64,000 nt of DNA from Aequorivita marisscotiae (lineage in GTDB: Bacteria > Bacteroidota > Bacteroidia > Flavobacteriales > Flavobacteriaceae). The first letter of the stretch is position 1, and every line of letters begins with the position of its first letter. This document shows, piece by piece, positions 31,757 to 39,646 of the stretch. Made by a program: the position numbers and the translations under genes. The stretch spans positions 434,001-498,000 of the forward strand of contig NZ_CP122379.1 in NCBI RefSeq assembly GCF_029814825.1. The letters are read 5' to 3'. The notes below the pieces were generated by a model, which worked only from the letters and a program-made list of their open reading frames with translations, searched no databases and was not told the DNA's origin.

Positions 31757-32155
31757 TTAATTCGCTTCTTGAAGTCCTTGGCTGTCCCAATTTAAAAATC
31801 CACCTTCCATATCGTAGATTTCCTTAAAACCCATTTCTTTCATAATCTGGGCTGCCCGGGCACTTCTTTTTCCGCTTCGGCAGTATAGATAAACAGGTTC
31901 GTCTTTGTCTAACTTGGCTACTTTTTCCTTAAAATCATCGTCAGTAACACAAATATTTTGCGCTGTTTCTAAGTGATCTTCGCCATATTCCTCCTTGGTA
32001 CGCACATCTATCAATTGCAAATTTTTGCTATTGCTAACTGCATCATATACTTCTTGAGGCGATATTACTTCAATACCATTTTGCGTATTGTTGTCTTTGC
32101 AAGCTGTGGTAAAAAGAAGCATCGCTAATCCAAAAACAAAAATTATCTTTTTCAT
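31757..32155 (-). CDS. Rhodanese-like lipoprotein
   Basis: A 132-residue lipoprotein (MKKIIFVFGLAMLLFTTACK, Cys19) with one rhodanese domain. The catalytic loop is YCRSGKRSARAAQIM (Cys near residue 90), and the CH2-A-like LQLIDVRTKEEYGEDHLETA is present. Rhodaneses transfer sulfane sulfur. A lipid-anchored, periplasmic sulfurtransferase role is inferred. Only 13 bp separates it from the soluble rhodanese gene upstream, so they are probably co-transcribed. Confidence 0.85.
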   Translation of the reverse strand: MKKIIFVFGLAMLLFTTACKDNNTQNGIEVISPQEVYDAVSNSKNLQLIDVRTKEEYGEDHLETAQNICVTDDDFKEKVAKLDKDEPVYLYCRSGKRSARAAQIMKEMGFKEIYDMEGGFLNWDSQGLQEAN

Positions 32156-32168
32156 AATATACTCAGAT

Positions 32169-32480
32169 TTAATTATTTATTTCACCATTCCACTCCATAA
32201 TTCCGCCCTTGAGATTATAGGCATTTTTTACGCCAACAGAATTCAGCAACATACAAGCTTGTCCGCTTCTACCACCCGAACGGCAGTAAACGTAGTAGCT
32301 TTTGTTGGGGTCTAATTCTTTAATCTTTTTTATAAATTCAGCACTATTATGAATATCCAATTGCAATGCCCCCGGAATGTAACCTTCCTCAAATTCGGCA
32401 TCGGTACGCACATCCAAAATTACTGCGTTTTCGTCATTTTCGCACTGCTCGCACCATTGTTCTTGAGTTAAATCTGCCAT
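32169..32480 (-). CDS. Single-domain rhodanese
   Basis: A 103-residue soluble rhodanese. It has NAVILDVRTDAEFEEGYIPG, then the active-site YCRSGGRSGQACMLL and the closing NLKGGIMEWNGEI. The cysteine loop CRSGGRS is intact. With no signal peptide it acts in the cytoplasm. It precedes the lipoprotein rhodanese by 13 bp. The 5' end is close to the trp leader on the opposite strand, so their promoters share a divergent region of about 117 bp. Confidence 0.9.
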   Translation of the reverse strand: MADLTQEQWCEQCENDENAVILDVRTDAEFEEGYIPGALQLDIHNSAEFIKKIKELDPNKSYYVYCRSGGRSGQACMLLNSVGVKNAYNLKGGIMEWNGEINN

Positions 32481-32552: not shown

Positions 32553-32586
32553 TTGTGAAATTTCAAGAAAAACCTTTTTATATTTG
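32553..32586 (+). promoter_or_regulatory. Putative trp operon promoter
   Basis: TATATTTG (32579-32586) matches the Bacteroidota -7 consensus TAnnTTTG. A TTG at 32553-32555 could be the -33 box, although the 23-bp spacing is longer than ideal. The predicted start site lies only a few bases before the leader peptide ATG, so the leader would be almost leaderless. Confidence 0.5.
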
Positions 32587-32597
32587 AACCCGAAACA

Positions 32598-32654
32598 ATG
32601 AACACATTTACACAAAATATTTGGTGGTGGAAAAACTTACGGCAAATCTCGTGA
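32598..32654 (+). CDS. trpL: trp operon leader peptide with three consecutive Trp codons
   Basis: An ATG at 32598-32600 opens an 18-codon reading frame ending in TGA at 32652-32654: MNTFTQNIWWWKNLRQIS. The three tandem TGG codons (32622-32630) are very unlikely by chance in such a short frame. It lies between the trp promoter box and a strong terminator just before trpE, which is the layout of ribosome-mediated transcription attenuation. When charged tRNA-Trp is scarce, a ribosome would stall at the WWW run and prevent the terminator from forming. It is too short for most gene finders. Confidence 0.85.
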   Translation: MNTFTQNIWWWKNLRQIS

Positions 32655-32683
32655 GCGGAACACCTATGGTATAAAAATATACG

Positions 32684-32715
32684 AAAAGGCTTGTCAATCA
32701 CGACAAGCCTTTTTT
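32684..32715 (+). terminator. trp attenuator terminator hairpin
   Basis: AAAAGGCTTGTC (32684-32695) pairs perfectly with GACAAGCCTTTT (32702-32713), a 12-bp stem with a 6-base loop AATCAC, ending in a T-run to 32715. It lies 30 nt after the leader peptide stop and 45 nt before trpE. No convincing antiterminator could be found by eye; the best is a short GGCAA (32641-32645) against TTGTC in the left arm. Confidence 0.88.
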
Positions 32716-32760
32716 CATGCCCGCAACAGCCGACAATTCTCAAAATATAGTATTCTAAAA

Positions 32761-34224
32761 ATGAAATATAACTTAAAAACACATTCAAAAAAACTATTGG
32801 CAGACACCCTCACGCCGGTTTCGGTGTATTTACGGTTACGCGATAAATTCCCGAACAGCCTACTTTTGGAAAGTAGCGATTACCACGCCAACGACAATAG
32901 TTTTAGCTATATCTGTTTCAATCCAATCGCATCAATTAAAGTTGAAAATGAAACCATAACACAAAAATTTCCGGATGGAAAATCAACCTGCATAGCTGTC
33001 TCCCCCATGGGGGGAGATGCCCAACGGGCAGAGGGAGACAAGGGGGACCGAGGGGATACTGTTCCAAAAATTTTAGACGAATTTGCCTCCTCTTTTTCAA
33101 TAAAATATGTTGAGCCTTCCCCTCTTCGAGGGGATCGAGGGGGAGCTGGTCTTTTCGGCTTTATGGCCTTTGATGCCGTACGCTATTTTGAGGATATTTC
33201 GCTTTCAAAAAAAGAAGAAAATCTCGGAATGCCAGATCTGTATTACGCCGTTTACCAAAACATCATTGCGATAAACCATTTTAATAACGAAGCCTACATT
33301 TTTGCACATTGTTACAATTCCGAAAATAACATTGCGCAGATTGAACAGATTTTAAAGTCGAAGAATTTTGCCGAGTTTCCTTTTAAAAGAAATGGTCCGC
33401 GAAGTACAAATCTAAACGATGAAGATTTTAAAGATTTAGTGCGAAAATGTAAGGAGCATTGCCAACGCGGCGATGTATTTCAAATTGTGCCCAGCAAACG
33501 TTTTTCGCAGCAATTTACAGGTGATGAATTCAATGTTTACAGAGCTTTGCGAAGTGTAAACCCTTCCCCCTATCTTTTTTATTTCGACTACGGAAATTTT
33601 AAAATCTTTGGAAGTTCGCCCGAAGCACAATTGGTCGTAAAAGGAAATACAGCAGAAATTCATCCAATCGCAGGCACCTTCAAACGCACTGGGAACGATG
33701 AGCAGGATGCCGAGCTCGCCAAAAAACTTTCTGAGGACAAAAAGGAAAACAGCGAACACGTAATGCTCGTAGATCTGGCGCGAAACGATTTAAGCCGGCA
33801 CGGTAGCGATGTTAACGTAGAAACCTACAGAGAGGTTCAATTTTTTTCGCACGTTATTCATTTGGTCAGCAAAGTTACGGCAACAAAAAATCCTGAAACT
33901 TCAACTATGCAGATTGTTGCAGACACTTTTCCAGCAGGAACTTTAAGCGGCGCCCCCAAACACAAAGCCCTGCAATTGCTGGAAAAATACGAAAACAGAA
34001 GTCGCGAATTTTACGGCGGCGCTATCGGTTTTATGGACTTTAGCGGTAATTTTAACCACGCAATAATCATCCGTTCCTTTGTGAGCAAAAACCATACATT
34101 GCATTATCAAGCGGGCGCTGGTGTAGTTTCAGAAAGCAATGAAGAAAATGAATTACAGGAAGTTTATAATAAACTCGGTGCTTTAACGAAAGCCCTTGAA
34201 TTAGCAGAGAAAATAGCCCCCTAA
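32761..34224 (+). CDS. trpE: Anthranilate synthase component I (with palindrome-encoded insertions)
   Basis: A 487-residue TrpE that converts chorismate to anthranilate using ammonia delivered by TrpG. The C-terminal chorismate-binding domain is well conserved (RGDVFQIVPSKRFSQQF, then EIHPIAGTFKRTGNDE, then PAGTLSGAPKHKALQLL, then RSREFYGGAIGF). The N-terminal part contains two odd Gly/Asp/Arg-rich stretches. One is at residues 80-99 (VSPMGGDAQRAEGDKGDRGD), encoded by a cruciform-like repeat. The other is at about 120-128 (SPLRGDRGG), encoded by a CCCCTC-TTC-GAGGGG hairpin. Both look like in-frame insertions of short palindromic elements into a surface loop. Its stop codon also lies in a related palindrome. 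Confidence 0.95.
   Translation: MKYNLKTHSKKLLADTLTPVSVYLRLRDKFPNSLLLESSDYHANDNSFSYICFNPIASIKVENETITQKFPDGKSTCIAVSPMGGDAQRAEGDKGDRGDTVPKILDEFASSFSIKYVEPSPLRGDRGGAGLFGFMAFDAVRYFEDISLSKKEENLGMPDLYYAVYQNIIAINHFNNEAYIFAHCYNSENNIAQIEQILKSKNFAEFPFKRNGPRSTNLNDEDFKDLVRKCKEHCQRGDVFQIVPSKRFSQQFTGDEFNVYRALRSVNPSPYLFYFDYGNFKIFGSSPEAQLVVKGNTAEIHPIAGTFKRTGNDEQDAELAKKLSEDKKENSEHVMLVDLARNDLSRHGSDVNVETYREVQFFSHVIHLVSKVTATKNPETSTMQIVADTFPAGTLSGAPKHKALQLLEKYENRSREFYGGAIGFMDFSGNFNHAIIIRSFVSKNHTLHYQAGAGVVSESNEENELQEVYNKLGALTKALELAEKIAP
32998..33039. repeat. Cruciform-type palindromic element translated inside trpE
   Basis: Outer arms GTCTCCC (32998-33004) and GGGAGAC (33033-33039) enclose two small hairpins, CCCCATGGGG and TGCCCAACGGGCA. 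The element is in frame and encodes residues 80-93, continuing into a G-rich tail (AGGGGGACCGAGGGGA). It resembles dispersed palindromes found between genes, here inside a coding region. Confidence 0.75.
33119..33146. repeat. CCCCTC-TTC-GAGGGG palindrome translated inside trpE
   Basis: CCCCTC (33119-33124), loop TTC, then GAGGGG (33128-33133), followed by a G-rich tail GAGGGGGAG. It encodes the PLRGDRGGA segment. The same hairpin-plus-G-tail design recurs at 34295-34327, and in reverse orientation at 34212-34236. Confidence 0.65.
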
Positions 34225-34236
34225 CCCCCGAAGGGG
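34212..34236. repeat. Palindromic element spanning the trpE stop codon
   Basis: The sequence after the last trpE codons reads CCCCCTAACCCCCGAAGGGG. The stop codon TAA is embedded in it, and CCCC-GAA-GGGG (34226-34236) forms a small hairpin. It is the reverse orientation of the hairpin-plus-G-tail element seen in trpE and before trpG. Confidence 0.6.
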
Positions 34237-34294
34237 AAATTTAAACCCAATATAAATGAAAAGTAAAATGTTAAATAAAAAACCAAAACAAGCT

Positions 34295-34327
34295 CCCTTT
34301 CCCTTTGGGGAAGGGCTGGGGATGGGG
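34295..34327. repeat. Palindromic element directly before trpG start
   Basis: CCCTTTCCC (34295-34303), loop TTT, GGGGAAGGG (34307-34315; one G-U), then CTGGGGATGGGG abutting the trpG ATG. The G-rich tail lies where a ribosome-binding site would be and may act as one. Confidence 0.65.
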
Positions 34328-34894
34328 ATGAAAATATTAGTAATAGACAATTATGACAGTTTTGTTTACAATCTCGTCCATTATTTAGAAGAATTGGATT
34401 GCGAGGTTACTGTAAAACGAAACGATAAATTCACTTTGGAAGAAGTTGAAAATTACGATAAAATTTTGCTTTCCCCCGGTCCGGGTATTCCGGATGAAGC
34501 AGGTTTACTGAAGGAAGTGATTCAAAAATACGCAACCTCAAAACCAATTTTCGGCGTGTGTTTGGGGCAACAAGCAATCGGGGAAGTGTTCGGCGGGAAA
34601 TTGGAAAACTTGAGCCAAGTTTTTCACGGTGTTGCAACAAAAGCAACAATAATTTCAGAAAACGAACCGCTTTTTAAGGGAATTGAAAAAGATTTTGAAA
34701 TAGGTCGTTACCACAGTTGGGTGGTTTCCAAAGAAGATTTTCCGGAGGTTTTGGAAATTACCTCCGTAGATGAAAACGGACAGATAATGTCGCTCAGACA
34801 TAAATTTTACAACGTATGCGGCGTGCAATTTCATCCCGAAAGTGTATTGACACCAATGGGAAAAATGATCGTTAAAAATTGGGTAGAAAGCTGA
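34328..34894 (+). CDS. trpG: Anthranilate synthase component II (glutamine amidotransferase)
   Basis: A 188-residue class I glutamine amidotransferase supplying ammonia to TrpE. The start is the ATG at 34328 (MKILVIDNYDSFVYN), which is the standard N-terminus. A frame extending upstream to 34256 would add 24 residues encoded by a palindrome and is rejected. The catalytic cysteine is C78 in FGVCLGQQAIGE, and the His/Glu pair is in VQFHPESVLTPMG. The length (about 190) matches the family. It follows trpE by about 100 bp that consists largely of repeats. Confidence 0.95.
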   Translation: MKILVIDNYDSFVYNLVHYLEELDCEVTVKRNDKFTLEEVENYDKILLSPGPGIPDEAGLLKEVIQKYATSKPIFGVCLGQQAIGEVFGGKLENLSQVFHGVATKATIISENEPLFKGIEKDFEIGRYHSWVVSKEDFPEVLEITSVDENGQIMSLRHKFYNVCGVQFHPESVLTPMGKMIVKNWVES

Positions 34895-34900
34895 AAAAGT

Positions 34901-34930
34901 AGTGTTCAGTGTTCAGTAGTAGTATTCAGT
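34901..34930. repeat. Degenerate heptanucleotide repeat in trpG-trpD gap
   Basis: AGTGTTC occurs twice in tandem, followed by AGTAGT and AGTATTC. It is short and imperfect, but has the same 7-bp period as arrays at 25581, 35971 and 37554. Confidence 0.5.
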
Positions 34931-34938
34931 AAAAACTT

Positions 34939-34963
34939 GGTGCCTTTGCGCCTTTGCGAGGAA
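34939..34963. repeat. CTTTGCG-type half element before trpD
   Basis: TGGTGCCTTTGCGCCTTTGCGAGG is a half-copy of the dispersed CTTTGCG palindrome and ends 5 bp before the trpD ATG, so its GAGG could serve as ribosome-binding site. Confidence 0.55.
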
Positions 34964-34967
34964 AAAA

Positions 34968-35963
34968 ATGAAACAAATTCTAGACAGATTAATAAACCAC
35001 GAGCAACTTTCAAAAGAAGAAGCGCGTACTGTGTTGGTAAACATTTCCGAAGGAAAATACAACCAAAGTCAAATTGCCGCATTTTTGACAGTATATATGA
35101 TGCGAAACGTGAGTTTGGAAGAATTGGAAGGATTCCGCGATGCGTTATTAGACCTGTGTTTGGCGGTAGATTTTAGCGAATACAACACTATAGATTTGTG
35201 CGGCACGGGCGGCGATGGAAAGAATACTTTTAATATTTCAACTTTGGCATCGTTTGTTACGGCGGGCGCTGGAATAAAAGTCGCCAAGCATGGCAATTAC
35301 GGAGTTTCTTCCGTAAGCGGCAGTAGCAATGTGATGGAAGCATTGGGAATAAGATTCAGTAATAATAGAGACTTTTTAAAACGAAGTTTGGACGAGGCCG
35401 GAATTTGTGTTTTGCACGCTCCCCTCTTTCACCCTGCAATGAAAAATGTAGCGCCAATTAGAAGGGAATTGGGTGTAAAAACCTTTTTCAATATGCTCGG
35501 ACCAATGGTAAATCCTGCATTTCCAAACAATCAATTGGTGGGGGTTTTCAATTTGGAATTGGCGCGGATGTACGGGTATCTCTATCAAAAAAGTGAAAAA
35601 AAATTCGCAGTGCTGAACGCAACGGACGGTTATGATGAAATTTCACTTACGGGCCCCGTAAAGGTTATTTCGAAAAATTCAGAAAACATGTTGAATGCCG
35701 AGGAATTTGGCGTGAAAAAAATTCGCGAATCTGAAATATTCGGTGGTGAAACGGTAAAAGCTTCCGCCGAAATATTTTTGGATATTTTAAACGGAAAAGG
35801 CTCCGAAGCACAAAATAACGTGGTTTGCGCAAATGCTGGAATGGCCATTTCAGTAGTTGAAGATTGCACTGTTAAAGAAGGTTTTGAAAAAGCGACGGAA
35901 TCTTTACAAGCTAGAAAAGCATTGCAATCATTTAAAAAATTACAACAACTATCGGAAAGATGA
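34968..35963 (+). CDS. trpD: Anthranilate phosphoribosyltransferase
   Basis: A 331-residue enzyme that transfers phosphoribose from PRPP to anthranilate. The N-terminal helical domain (LINHEQLSKEEARTVLVNIS) precedes the glycine-rich PRPP loop DLCGTGGDGKNTFNISTLAS at about residues 75-94. Further motifs are KHGNYGVSSVSGSSNVMEAL and HPAMKNVAPIRRELGVKTFF. The length fits the family (about 330-345). It is third in the trpEGDCFBA order. The RBS region is a repeat element. Confidence 0.96.
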   Translation: MKQILDRLINHEQLSKEEARTVLVNISEGKYNQSQIAAFLTVYMMRNVSLEELEGFRDALLDLCLAVDFSEYNTIDLCGTGGDGKNTFNISTLASFVTAGAGIKVAKHGNYGVSSVSGSSNVMEALGIRFSNNRDFLKRSLDEAGICVLHAPLFHPAMKNVAPIRRELGVKTFFNMLGPMVNPAFPNNQLVGVFNLELARMYGYLYQKSEKKFAVLNATDGYDEISLTGPVKVISKNSENMLNAEEFGVKKIRESEIFGGETVKASAEIFLDILNGKGSEAQNNVVCANAGMAISVVEDCTVKEGFEKATESLQARKALQSFKKLQQLSER

Positions 35964-35970
35964 ATTGGGA

Positions 35971-36096
35971 GTGACGAGTTACGAGCGACGAGCGACGAGT
36001 TACGAGCGACGAGTTACGAGTGACGAGCGACGAATCACGAATTAACGATTAACGATTAACGATTAACGATTAACGATTAACGATTAACGATTAACG
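35971..36096. repeat. 18-unit heptanucleotide array between trpD and trpC
   Basis: The array is exactly 126 bp (18 x 7). Ten units of the form G(T/C)(G/T)ACGA with variants (35971-36040) are followed by eight perfect units of ATTAACG (36041-36096), and then by AAAA and the trpC ATG. The first block is degenerate and the second is homogeneous, which suggests that the ATTAACG part expanded recently. It has no spacer structure and is not a CRISPR. Confidence 0.9.
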
Positions 36097-36100
36097 AAAA

Positions 36101-36883
36101 ATGAACATTTTAAATACCATAACTGCTTATAAACGCAAGGAAGTTTCCGCAAAAAAAGAAGCTATTCCTACAAGATTATTGGAGAAATTTCCACTTTTCG
36201 CCAAAGAAACAAAATCATTAGCAGAGGCGTTACGCAATTCTACAACCGGAATTATTGCAGAGCACAAACGCCGCTCGCCCAGTAAATCTGTCATTAACGA
36301 CAAGGTACTGTTGCCCGAAGTAGTTTTAGGTTATGAAAATGCTGGGGCTAAAGGAGTTTCAGTTTTAACCGATTCTAACTTTTTTGGTGGCTCATTAGAT
36401 GATCTTTTGGTAGCCGAAAAAACGATTTCCATCCCAATACTACGGAAAGAATTCATCATTGACCCCTATCAAATTTACGAATCGAAAGCATACGGCGCAG
36501 ATGCCATTTTATTAATTGCGGCGTGTCTTTCGGCAGAAGAATTAAAACAGTTTTCGCATTTGGCAAAAAGTTTAAAACTCGATGTATTATTAGAAGTCCA
36601 TAATCTGGAGGAACTTCAAAAATCAATGTTGCCAAATGTAGATATGATTGGCGTTAACAATAGAAATTTAAAAAATTTTAAGGTAAGTATAGATATCAGC
36701 AAAAAGCTTTCCAAAGAAATTCCGAATGATTTTGTGAAAATTTCCGAAAGCGGAATTAGCGATGTGGAAACTATAAAAGAATTGAGAACCTTTGGTTACG
36801 AAGGGTTTTTAATTGGTGAAAATTTTATGAAGACGGAAAATCCCGGAGAAACCGCAAAACAATTTATTGAAAAACTGAGATGA
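36101..36883 (+). CDS. trpC: Indole-3-glycerol phosphate synthase
   Basis: A 260-residue TIM-barrel enzyme that forms indole-3-glycerol phosphate. Catalytic motifs are present: IIAEHKRRSPSKS (family E-x-K-x-x-S-P-S), VSVLTDSNFFGGSLDDLLVA, PILRKEFIIDPYQIYESKAY and IGVNNRNLKNF. The phosphate-binding SESGISDVETIKELRTFGYE near the C-terminus is intact. The start ATG at 36101 is four bases after a heptanucleotide array. It overlaps trpF by 4 bp (ATGA). Confidence 0.96.
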   Translation: MNILNTITAYKRKEVSAKKEAIPTRLLEKFPLFAKETKSLAEALRNSTTGIIAEHKRRSPSKSVINDKVLLPEVVLGYENAGAKGVSVLTDSNFFGGSLDDLLVAEKTISIPILRKEFIIDPYQIYESKAYGADAILLIAACLSAEELKQFSHLAKSLKLDVLLEVHNLEELQKSMLPNVDMIGVNNRNLKNFKVSIDISKKLSKEIPNDFVKISESGISDVETIKELRTFGYEGFLIGENFMKTENPGETAKQFIEKLR

Positions 36884-37521
36884 AGCCATTGCTAAAAATT
36901 TGTGGAATGAAACACAACATCGCCGAAGTTGCCAAACTTCAGCCAGATTATTTGGGTTTTATTTTTTATGAAAAGAGTCCGCGGTATTTTGATGGTGAAG
37001 AAATTCCACAGCTTCCCGAAGGCGTTAAAAAGGTTGGCGTTTTCGTGGATGCTACAATAGATGAAATTCTCACAACTTTTGAAAAATACAATTTGGATGT
37101 TATTCAACTTCATGGCAATGAAACAAAGGAATTTGTGCTAACCCTAAATATGTATTTGCGGTTAAAGTTTTGGGATGGATATGAAGTTTGGAAAGTCTTT
37201 CCCGTTGACGATTCTTTCGATTTTTCCGATACACGTGATTTTGTAAAAAAAGTAGATGCTTTTTTATTCGATACAAAAGGTCATAATCACGGTGGCAATG
37301 GAAAAACTTTTAATTGGGAGATTTTGAAAAATTACAAATATAAAACACCCTTCATTTTAAGTGGCGGCATAGGTTTGGAAGAAATTGAAAATTTAAAAAA
37401 ACTATTAAAAACAAACCTGCCAATTTATGCGATTGACGTAAATAGCAAATTTGAAATCGAGCCAGGAATGAAGGACGTTTCAACTTTAAAGAAGTTCATG
37501 GACGTTTTAAACCACGACTGA
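36880..37521 (+). CDS. trpF: Phosphoribosylanthranilate isomerase
   Basis: A 213-residue TIM-barrel isomerase. The N-terminal LKICGMKHNIAEVAKLQPDY has the catalytic cysteine, LDVIQLHGNE is the central motif, and the C-terminal PFILSGGIGLEEIENLKKLL, then YAIDVNSKFEIEPGMKD, is the phosphate-binding end with the catalytic Asp in AIDVNS. It overlaps trpC by the ATGA junction, so the two are coupled. This order (trpC and trpF as separate genes) is common in Bacteroidota. Confidence 0.95.
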   Translation: MKPLLKICGMKHNIAEVAKLQPDYLGFIFYEKSPRYFDGEEIPQLPEGVKKVGVFVDATIDEILTTFEKYNLDVIQLHGNETKEFVLTLNMYLRLKFWDGYEVWKVFPVDDSFDFSDTRDFVKKVDAFLFDTKGHNHGGNGKTFNWEILKNYKYKTPFILSGGIGLEEIENLKKLLKTNLPIYAIDVNSKFEIEPGMKDVSTLKKFMDVLNHD

Positions 37522-37553
37522 GGAAACCACGAACTACGACTAAAAAAAGCGAT

Positions 37554-37580
37554 GAATACTGAATATTGAATACTGAAAAT
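37554..37580. repeat. Heptanucleotide repeat before trpB
   Basis: GAATACT-GAATATT-GAATACT-GAAAAT, period 7, lies immediately upstream of the trpB ATG at 37581. It is three full units plus a partial, and is the fourth heptad array in the window. Confidence 0.6.
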
Positions 37581-38762
37581 ATGAATTATAATGTAAACGA
37601 AAAAGGCTATTACGGGGAGTTTGGTGGAGCGTATATTCCCGAAATGCTGTATCCAAATGTGGAGGAATTACGACAAAAGTATTTAAAGGTAATGGGTGAG
37701 GAATCCTTTCAAAAAGAATTCCACCAATTGCTGAAAGACTACGTGGGGCGCCCTACACCGTTGTATTTTGCAAAGCGGCTTTCAGAAAAATACAACACAA
37801 AAATCTATTTAAAACGCGAAGATCTCTGCCACACGGGAGCGCACAAAGTAAACAACACTATTGGCCAGATTTTGATGGCAAAACGATTGGGCAAAACCCG
37901 GATTATTGCCGAAACCGGCGCCGGGCAGCACGGCGTTGCGACCGCAACAGTTTGTGCTTTAATGGGCTTGGAATGTATTGTTTTTATGGGTGAAATCGAT
38001 ATAAAACGTCAAGCGCCAAACGTGGCCCGTATGAAAATGCTGGGCGCAAAAGTTGTACCAGCCACAAGTGGAAGCAAAACTTTGAAAGACGCCACCAATG
38101 AAGCAATTCGAGATTGGATCAACAATCCGGTTAATACACATTATATTATAGGTAGTGTTGTTGGCCCGCACCCATATCCTGATATGGTAGCCCGTTTTCA
38201 AAGTGTGATTTCAGAGGAAATAAAAACTCAACTCAACGAAAAAGAAAGCCGTGAAAACCCAGATTTTGTAGTGGCTTGTGTGGGTGGTGGCAGTAATGCC
38301 GCAGGAGCATTTTATCATTATTTAAACAAACCTGAAGTAGGAATCATCGCTGTAGAAGCAGCCGGAAAAGGAATTGATAGTGGCGAAAGCGCGGCAACTT
38401 CAGCTTTGGGAAAAGTGGGGATTATCCACGGGAGCAAAACGCTTTTAATGCAAACACCGGACGGACAAATTACAGAGCCATACTCTATCTCGGCTGGTTT
38501 GGACTATCCCGGTGTAGGCCCCATGCACGCCCATCTTTTTGCTAGCGGCCGCGGCGAGTTTATTTCCATAACAGATAACAAAGCGATGGAGGCCGGAATG
38601 GAACTTTGCAAATTGGAAGGCATTATTCCCGCCATTGAAAGTAGTCATGCATTGGCAATTTTTGAAACCCGAAAATTTAAAAAAGACGAAGTGGTTGTCG
38701 TGAATTTAAGCGGCCGTGGCGATAAGGATTTGGATACTTACATTAAGCATTTTGATTTATAA
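37581..38762 (+). CDS. trpB: Tryptophan synthase beta subunit
   Basis: A 393-residue PLP enzyme that condenses indole with serine. The start is the ATG at 37581 ([20 protein letters not shown]); a five-codon extension begins with TTG within a heptad array and is not favoured. The PLP-binding lysine is K89 in [14 protein letters not shown], the glycine loop is [18 protein letters not shown], and the C-terminal serine is in [16 protein letters not shown]. It follows trpF by about 60 bp. It works as a complex with TrpA. Confidence 0.97.
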
Positions 38763-38878
38763 AACCGTTGTCCGGTGGAGCGCAATTGAGACCCACTTTT
38801 GTGCAAATGGACATTTAGTTCTCGACTTTAATTTATACTCAGCAGGTCGAAGGACTCGAACAGACAAAAAATAATAAT

Positions 38879-39646
38879 ATGAACAGAATTCAACAAAAAC
38901 TTTCAGAGAACAAAAAACTACTTTCTATTTACTTCACCGCAGGTTATCCAAAATTGGATGACACGGTTGAAATAATACAAGAATTGGAAAAATCCAGCGT
39001 AGATTTTATTGAAATCGGATTACCTTTCAGCGACCCTTTGGCCGACGGACCCACCATTCAAGTGAGTTCGCAGCTTGCATTAAAAAATGGAATGACCACC
39101 CAAGTGCTTTTTCAGCAACTGAAGGACATTCGCAAAACAGTTACAATTCCATTAATTATTATGGGGTATTTTAATCCCCTGCTTCAATTTGGCGTTGAAA
39201 ATTTCTGTAAAAAATGTGCCGAAATCGGTATTGACGGCTTAATTCTGCCCGATTTACCTTTGGCAGAATATCAAGAACACTATGCCGAAATCTTCAAAAA
39301 ACATGGGCTTTTGAACATATTTTTAATCACACCCCAAACTTCCGAAGCGCGTATTAAACAAATAGATGCCGCTTCCGAAGGTTTTATTTATATGGTGAGC
39401 AGCGCCAGCGTTACGGGCAATTCTTCCGGTTTTGGAGCTGCGCAGGAAAATTATTTTAAAAGAATTGAATTACTACAACTTAAAAATCCACAGATTGTAG
39501 GATTCGGAATAAACAATTCAGAAACGTTTCAGCAGGCTACAAAATATTCAAGAGGAGCAATTATTGGCAGTGCCTTTATAAAAATGCTGTCCGAAAAAGG
39601 ATTGGAAGGCATCTCTAACTTTGTAGGTTCAATTAGAGAGGTTTAA
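38879..39646 (+). CDS. trpA: Tryptophan synthase alpha subunit
   Basis: A 255-residue TIM-barrel subunit that cleaves indole-3-glycerol phosphate. Motifs are YFTAGYPKLDDTVEIIQELE, then IEIGLPFSDPLADGPTIQVS with the catalytic Glu, then LPDLPLAEYQEHY with the catalytic Asp, and FIYMVSSASVTGNSSGFGAA. The last gene of the trp operon. A 116-bp gap from trpB carries no obvious structure, so read-through is likely, although a secondary promoter cannot be excluded. No clear terminator follows trpA before the small gene at 39728. Confidence 0.96.
   Translation: MNRIQQKLSENKKLLSIYFTAGYPKLDDTVEIIQELEKSSVDFIEIGLPFSDPLADGPTIQVSSQLALKNGMTTQVLFQQLKDIRKTVTIPLIIMGYFNPLLQFGVENFCKKCAEIGIDGLILPDLPLAEYQEHYAEIFKKHGLLNIFLITPQTSEARIKQIDAASEGFIYMVSSASVTGNSSGFGAAQENYFKRIELLQLKNPQIVGFGINNSETFQQATKYSRGAIIGSAFIKMLSEKGLEGISNFVGSIREV

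Follow-up and report, generated by a model that had tools for sequence, protein, structure and literature searches.

How does the trp operon of Aequorivita marisscotiae escape the terminator that precedes its first gene? A sequence-only reading of the 64,000-nt stretch of DNA analysed here (the window) had described an 18-codon frame with three tandem Trp codons, a perfect 12-bp hairpin with a T-run and, 45 nt farther on, trpE, and had proposed that tRNA-Trp charging regulates the operon through ribosome stalling. Direct reading of the sequence bore out the frame, which opens with an ATG at 32598 and closes with a UGA codon at 32652-32654, as well as the hairpin, which begins 29 nt after the leader stop and consists of 12 perfect pairs between AAAAGGCTTGTC (32684-32695) and GACAAGCCTTTT (32702-32713) around the loop AATCAC (32696-32701), with a T-run at 32710-32715. 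The trpE start (32761) lies 45 nt past this T-run, as described, and NCBIfam matches support the assignment of a trp operon (Table 1), TrpE and TrpF reaching no listed NCBIfam model at its curated cut-off; TrpE of the window is closest to that of Aequorivita todarodis (88% over the best segment). A pattern scan reported the terminator hairpin on the minus strand only, probably because its rule wants the T-run to follow the stem and much of the run here lies inside the stem. Divergently from the trp leader, two adjacent ORFs (31757-32480, minus strand) match rhodanese-type sulfurtransferase families, none above the curated cut-off.

Table 1. Elements of the trp leader and operon in the window, in order of position.
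Feature	Position	Strand	Evidence
Rfam RF01692 (Bacteroid-trp) match, stopping at the end of the terminator 5′ arm	32578..32695	+	covariance model
TATATTTG, which fits the Bacteroidota -7 promoter consensus TAnnTTTG	32579..32586	+	sequence; relatives
Leader peptide ORF MNTFTQNIWWWKNLRQIS, 18 codons	32598..32654	+	read directly; recurrence in relatives
Three tandem Trp codons UGGUGGUGG	32622..32630	+	sequence; fold; relatives
Region 1, CUUACGG (putative anti-antiterminator), partner UCGUGAG 32649-32655	32636..32642	+	folds, Rfam alignment
Region 2, UCGUGA (predicted antiterminator 5′ strand), includes the leader stop codon	32649..32654	+	comparative pairing test, covariation
Small hairpin GUAUA/UAUAC in the spacer separating region 2 from the terminator	32669..32682	+	fold; relatives
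Intrinsic terminator, 12-bp stem, loop AAUCAC, U-run	32684..32715	+	sequence, fold, alignment A1
Predicted antiterminator 3′ strand UCACGA, last four loop bases and first two of the terminator 3′ arm	32698..32703	+	comparative
trpE-G-D-C-F-B-A, presumed regulated operon	32761..39646	+	NCBIfam matches, ORFs

The trp attenuator itself is already catalogued and is not new, because the Rfam family RF01692 covers it as a tryptophan peptide leader. The match in the window scored 54.3 bits against a gathering threshold of 49, was the only one found in the whole genome, and coincides with a tandem-Trp leader ORF upstream of trp genes. The consensus hairpin of the family, which pairs the Trp-codon region with the stop-codon region, was recovered in the minimum-energy fold, and the Rfam alignment marks many non-standard pairs in it. 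Within the window the Rfam threshold was reached by RF01692 and a tRNA only, and neither of these two matches was a T-box; RF02503 and RF02986 surfaced at a relaxed threshold only, below their gathering scores. Matches to RF01692 were found in 157 of 199 genomes sampled from the family (E up to 0.001) and in 51 of 392 sampled from the phylum (E up to 0.01), both being counts obtained with stricter filters that lose weak matches. Bacteroid-trp appears in a table of the original report (Weinberg et al. 2010, PMC2864571), where it is classed as a Bacteroidetes candidate RNA with a cis-regulatory role. The accessible text of a paper on F. psychrophilum notes the same element upstream of trp (PMC6414381), and that of a transcriptome study of this species mentions ‘strong clues’ of attenuation by leader peptides ahead of amino-acid operons (PMC9723704). 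Described in 2010, the family still has an Rfam model that cannot show how termination is prevented; it stops with the terminator 5′ arm and is therefore blind to a partner located in the loop or the 3′ arm.

The analysis rests on 235 sequences, namely the window and 234 other loci, of which L002-L081 were fetched by TrpE and L082-L235 (154 loci) as RF01692 matches, so that only the former test recurrence. A leader followed by a terminator was found in 76 of these 80 loci chosen by TrpE similarity alone, the misses being three loci at contig ends (L006, L021, L029) and one excluded by the ORF rule (L040); the alignment of regions upstream of trpE that the sequence-only reading had called for thus reveals conserved WW/WWW leader frames and terminators. 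Over the whole set, a Trp-run leader and then a terminator were found in 231 of 235, one wrong pick (L146) included. The 231 were reduced to 221 unique sequences, then to 138 by dereplication at 88% and to 137 by removal of L146; the Trp run is WWW in 132 of them and WW in 5. Alignment A1 comprises 132 sequences, that is the 137 minus L144, L148, L152, L153 and L155, which come from outside the family and are without the apex motif pairing described below; these five were retained in the 137-sequence pairing test. In five loci a single-domain GIY-YIG protein of 94-98 aa (PF01541, 5/5 above cut-off) is encoded between the trp attenuator and trpE, at about 1177-1462 in L052, L053 and L075 and about 1138-1435 in L060 and L070; these loci belong to Flagellimonas/Muricauda and Salegentibacter.

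Two matching words emerged when the loci were listed: a near-constant (G)UCGUGA about 27 nt past the first UGG and, where the terminator loop ends, the reverse complement UCACGA(C). Of the 137 sequences, 118 have UCGUGA or UCGUAA 26-28 nt downstream of the start of the first UGG. The predicted antiterminator of the window is accordingly a helix between region 2 and the terminator apex, made of the loop and the start of the 3′ arm. We compared, free of any alignment, the best pairing between the apex (the loop with its flanks) and the stretch that follows the Trp codons with that of 100 dinucleotide shuffles of this stretch per sequence, shuffles which ignore relatedness. The longest helix with the apex averaged 7.0 bp against 4.7 bp in shuffled sequences (mean z -3.1, n = 137) and the mean duplex energy was -10.0 against -4.8 (n = 137); 95 of the 137 had at most 5% of shuffles as long, and 119 had a z below -2. 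The helix of the window itself has 6 pairs only. When the terminator 5′ arm was taken as the partner in the same test, as in the E. coli 2:3 topology, the mean z was +0.09. By helix length three of the 137 passed at 5% (L022, L025 and L144), five had a z below -2 (L025, L144, L148, L152 and L232), and the window had a z of +0.4. The classical 5′-arm antiterminator was thus rejected, its complementarity over the 137 dereplicated sequences being on average no better than chance.

These values bear on the reading of the locus as a plain E. coli-type attenuator, with an antiterminator on the 5′ arm and an apex complementarity that would be incidental. Such a reading is unlikely: the leader, its codons, the terminator and the 1:2 hairpin do resemble those of E. 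coli, and the predicted stalled fold of the window also pairs CCU with AGG of the 5′ arm, but the 5′ arm scores at chance across the 137 sequences, whereas a comparable test detects it in 20 of 28 his leaders (see below), and the apex pairing covaries. The motif pairing is absent from five of the 137 sequences, all from outside the family (L144, L148, L152, L153 and L155), and three of these (L144, L148 and L152) favour the 5′ arm with z from -3.1 to -4.3 and look classical. The sequence-only reading had seen no convincing antiterminator and had warned that the alternative fold may differ from that of E. coli. The comparison agrees with the warning: a candidate antiterminator can be proposed, with the apex as its partner, and the alternative fold does seem to differ from that of E. 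coli. The fold of 32590-32760 that the reading had recommended is more stable than expected (-35.9 kcal/mol versus -25.5 kcal/mol for shuffled sequences, z -2.78, equalled by 2 of 200 shuffles), and the predicted partner of region 2 is the apex instead of the 5′ arm at 32684-32695 named in that check.

Alignment A1 allowed us to follow the predicted pairing column by column. Cells of the antiterminator are 92.3% paired, versus 5.8 to 56.3% in slid registers (n = 132), and the central pair (columns 36-113) is G-C in 123 sequences, A-U in 8, G-U in 1 and broken in none. The A-U pairs occur in three Dokdonia (L030, L031 and L048), in L206, in L219 and in three sequences from other families (L112, L118 and L143). 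From their labels, we took Dokdonia, L206, L219 and two other families as lineages; when TrpE was compared over a short stretch, L219 did not fall beside Dokdonia. Two neighbouring pairs are changed at once in L206, which has GUCGCAA with UUGCGAC. Columns 38 and 111, adjacent to the pairing, show an association of A with T (odds 13, p 5e-8), uncorrected for relatedness. By comparison, the terminator stem is paired in 99.7% of cells, with both sides changed in 7 of 11 pairs, and the spacer hairpin in 78.7% (four pairs tested). Region 1 and region 2 are paired in 68.6% of cells in the register of the window, slid controls reaching similar covariation values; the 1:2 hairpin, taken here from the folds, thus lacks firm support from the columns, and by eye clades seem to use different registers. 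RNAalifold returned only the terminator from A1, as expected for mutually exclusive folds.

How deep the helix reaches into the stem separates a terminator-excluding structure from a contact between region 2 and the loop only, a kissing or pseudoknot interaction that would leave the terminator intact and perhaps stabilise it or cause a pause. The outermost pair (31-118), which lies deepest in the stem, holds in 77 of 132 sequences only, and at least four paired bases lie in the loop in 120 of 137, as a kissing contact would have it. On the other hand, the stem-using pairs near the loop hold in 130 (33-116) and 126 (32-117) of 132, and the best apex helix takes at least two terminator-stem bases in 133 of 137 sequences, a count made without shuffle control, so that this helix excludes the complete terminator beyond mere loop contact. 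Furthermore, L142, L150 and L204 have lost the UC that precedes the motif, and there the helix instead reaches into the other arm. We thus regard a contact confined to the loop as quite improbable. Still less probable is a coincidence of two words conserved for separate reasons, the loop because it forms a stable UNAC-like tetraloop or binds a factor, region 2 because of the 1:2 hairpin or the stop codon. The loop is exactly UCAC in 12 of 137 sequences, which resembles a known class of tetraloops, and region 2 does also pair with region 1 in folds; most loops, however, are longer, with variable bases before UCAC, and both words change together in Dokdonia (UAA/UUAC), in L206 (GCAA/UUGC) and in L219, and differ together in two other families. 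Nor does the stop codon explain the motif, since a looser pattern finds it as the in-frame stop in 87 of 137 sequences but in another frame or after the stop in 43 (and not at all in 7).

Taken together, the sequence comparisons indicate that the locus is likely to be a ribosome-mediated transcription attenuator of the Bacteroid-trp family in which region 2 captures the terminator apex as an antiterminator. Ribosome-mediated Trp attenuation, as the earlier reading had proposed, is the best-supported reading given the conserved leader, terminator and position, the RF01692 match and the published F. psychrophilum clues; stalling upon poor charging, the order of folding and the response to tryptophan are what we infer from them. 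An intrinsic terminator does lie between the leader and the first gene, and the antiterminator that excludes it is a prediction. When tRNA-Trp is charged, the ribosome would reach the stop codon inside region 2 and cover UCGUGA, so that the terminator would fold and transcription would stop. When charged tRNA-Trp is short, the ribosome would stall on the Trp codons and mask region 1, leaving region 2 free to pair with UCACGA as the loop and the first bases of the 3′ arm leave the polymerase; the hairpin could then not nucleate, because its apex would be paired before the rest of the 3′ arm exists, and with the terminator blocked trpEGDCFBA would be transcribed. If the leader is not translated, region 1 would sequester region 2, with help from pairing of the Trp codons with CACC, and the terminator would form by default.

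Folding calculations are consistent with each of these states. The fold without a ribosome pairs CUUACGG with UCGUGAG and GGUG (32626-32629) with CACC (32661-32664). A ribosome covers about 15 nt past its P site. With boundaries set by this footprint, the RNA that would be free beyond a stalled ribosome, up to the apex, folds into a UCGUGA-UCACGA helix enclosing the GUAUA/UAUAC hairpin, and leaving out the stop-codon region gives the terminator; by the same footprint, a ribosome with the first Trp codon in its A site would not quite cover region 1. As the transcript of the window grows, the antiterminator is computed to be the more stable fold up to about 4 nt short of the finished stem, and for at least as long in eight other hand-picked sequences. 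The finished stem then beats it in the window (-21.1 versus -17.1 kcal/mol) and in six others of these nine sequences (the exceptions being L219 and L073), and because the antiterminator loses to the finished stem, antitermination would have to be kinetic.

We extended the comparison to two other families of the class, where 74 of 123 and 50 of 151 genomes have RF01692 matches, 124 in all. Of the new loci we read the best 57; by rule, four gave no terminator, and the remaining 53 were used, with mononucleotide shuffles. UCGUAAG has CUURCGR opposite it in 31 of the 53, four more have UCGUGAG with a comparable word, and a further four have CGUAAGG opposite CUUUACG; in the remaining 14 the helices are shorter, bulged or broken, and L283, L297 and L302 have changed or inverted terminator loops. 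The mean z was -1.28 for the apex, with 11 of 53 below -2, and -0.11 for the 5′ arm. Alignment A2, made of 72 rows of which 19 are hand-picked A1 rows including known variants, is 94.5% paired against at most 51.9% in slid registers; as 16 of its 18 rows with a G-C central pair are hand-picked, it mainly shows the difference between families. The loops of L283 and L302 look inverted relative to close relatives (AAGT for ACTT and AGT for ACT, respectively), with the apex pairing broken or shortened. In a third family of the class, L148, L149, L152 and L154 retain UCGUAA after the Trp codons, and the adjacent GGCARCC is able to pair with the 5′ arm of the terminator, L148 and L152 being the two that went through the pairing test; the class thus seems to hold both topologies.

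The his leaders of the Flavobacteriaceae offer a comparison within one family. A His-run leader and a terminator were found in 28 of 30 hisG loci, these being the 30 best-scoring loci among 50 genomes with a match, used as fetched without dereplication and with mononucleotide shuffles. Here it is the 5′ arm that finds its complement, typically UCARGCG, in the stretch between the His codons and the terminator (mean z -2.3, 20 of 28 below -2), and the apex has a mean z of -0.45 (1 of 28 below -2). The pairing test does not, therefore, favour the apex as such, since on average his leaders score for the 5′ arm, and the trp and his operons of one family appear, by complementarity, to use different topologies. 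The his leader of the genome of the window (L236) is an exception, with a z of -0.3 for the 5′ arm and -1.4 for the apex. On balance, we lean toward viewing this ‘apex capture’ as a distinct topology of Bacteroidia trp operons, in which the strand released by the stalled ribosome, usually with the leader stop codon, would seize the loop and the apical 3′ arm and block nucleation kinetically, his operons of the same family being mostly of the classical 5′-arm type. Two leaders of this genome besides that of trp were also read. The reverse complement of L236, near 2.817 Mb and upstream of hisG, holds an HHHH leader, MNNSFLHHHHISLHALAR, and a terminator, with a TAGATTTG box seen by eye just upstream. 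The reverse complement of L237, near 1.61 Mb, holds tandem Ile-run leader ORFs, MYNSIIISSIIIAGVISHTVEE and MNSYNNTIIISIIICSPP (196-264 and 351-407), each followed by a terminator-like hairpin, a possible double attenuator; they lie upstream of an ORF order resembling ilvE-ilvD-ilvB, in which a family search found only IlvD. By eye, GUGAGAGA after the second Ile leader could pair with the 5′ apex and loop of its terminator.

The earlier reading had judged the 5′ UTR to be very short, and the leader start indeed lies close to a promoter box in most relatives. The TATATTTG box of the window is 19 nt from the leader ATG. If transcription starts about 5 nt past the -7 box, as we assume, the 5′ UTR would be about 6 nt long. 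Among the 137 sequences, 128 have a TAnnTTTG box no more than 60 nt from the leader start and 119 no more than 28 nt from it, the median distance being 19 nt, against an expectation of 2% in mononucleotide shuffles. The leader start, which our scripts assign as the nearest ATG, is ATG in 134 sequences and GTG in 3. The distance from box to start is exactly 13 nt in 29 of the 137, so that, with a start about 5 nt after the box, the transcript would be nearly leaderless. In the parts of the F. psychrophilum transcriptome study available to us, the median UTR is 24 nt, leaderless transcripts make up 5.5% of the mRNAs examined, and Shine-Dalgarno signals are not expected in Bacteroidota (PMC9723704). 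Such short UTRs, possibly absent in some relatives, make these leaders naturally suited to the study of initiation that does without Shine-Dalgarno signals.

Our comparative data suggest a known family with an unusual antiterminator topology. The locus shares with RF01692 a Trp-codon leader before trp genes, UGG codons in the 5′ strand and UCgUaA in the 3′ strand of a hairpin, and the terminator 5′ arm at the 3′ end of the model, which does not contain the terminator loop, the 3′ arm or the antiterminator proposed here. The trp leader of F. psychrophilum is the same element and has been read as attenuation, the accessible text of both papers describing no antiterminator (PMC6414381, PMC9723704). 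We did not find an apex-type pairing described in the accessible parts of the open-access literature searched, which gave one loose precedent for terminator-loop antiterminators, the fhsA motif. In that motif a terminator stem-loop is likewise proposed, speculatively, to pair with the preceding hairpin, which would block the terminator; it differs as a riboswitch candidate for which the text available mentions no leader peptide (PMC11109978). If the apex pairing is right, the natural G-C to A-U swap offers a direct test of it; antiterminators could then form without recourse to the 5′ arm of the terminator, and a search rule that asks for a complement to that arm would overlook attenuators of this kind. 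The E. coli trp attenuator has a leader peptide with Trp codons, 1:2 and 3:4 hairpins and a stop codon near region 2. The Aequorivita leader shares the regulatory Trp codons, the 1:2 and 3:4 hairpins and the position of the stop codon; it differs in having a very short 5′ UTR, as judged from the promoter box, in that no Shine-Dalgarno signal is expected, and in that the 3′ strand of the antiterminator, which in E. coli is the 5′ arm, would here be the terminator apex, that is the loop and the start of the 3′ arm.
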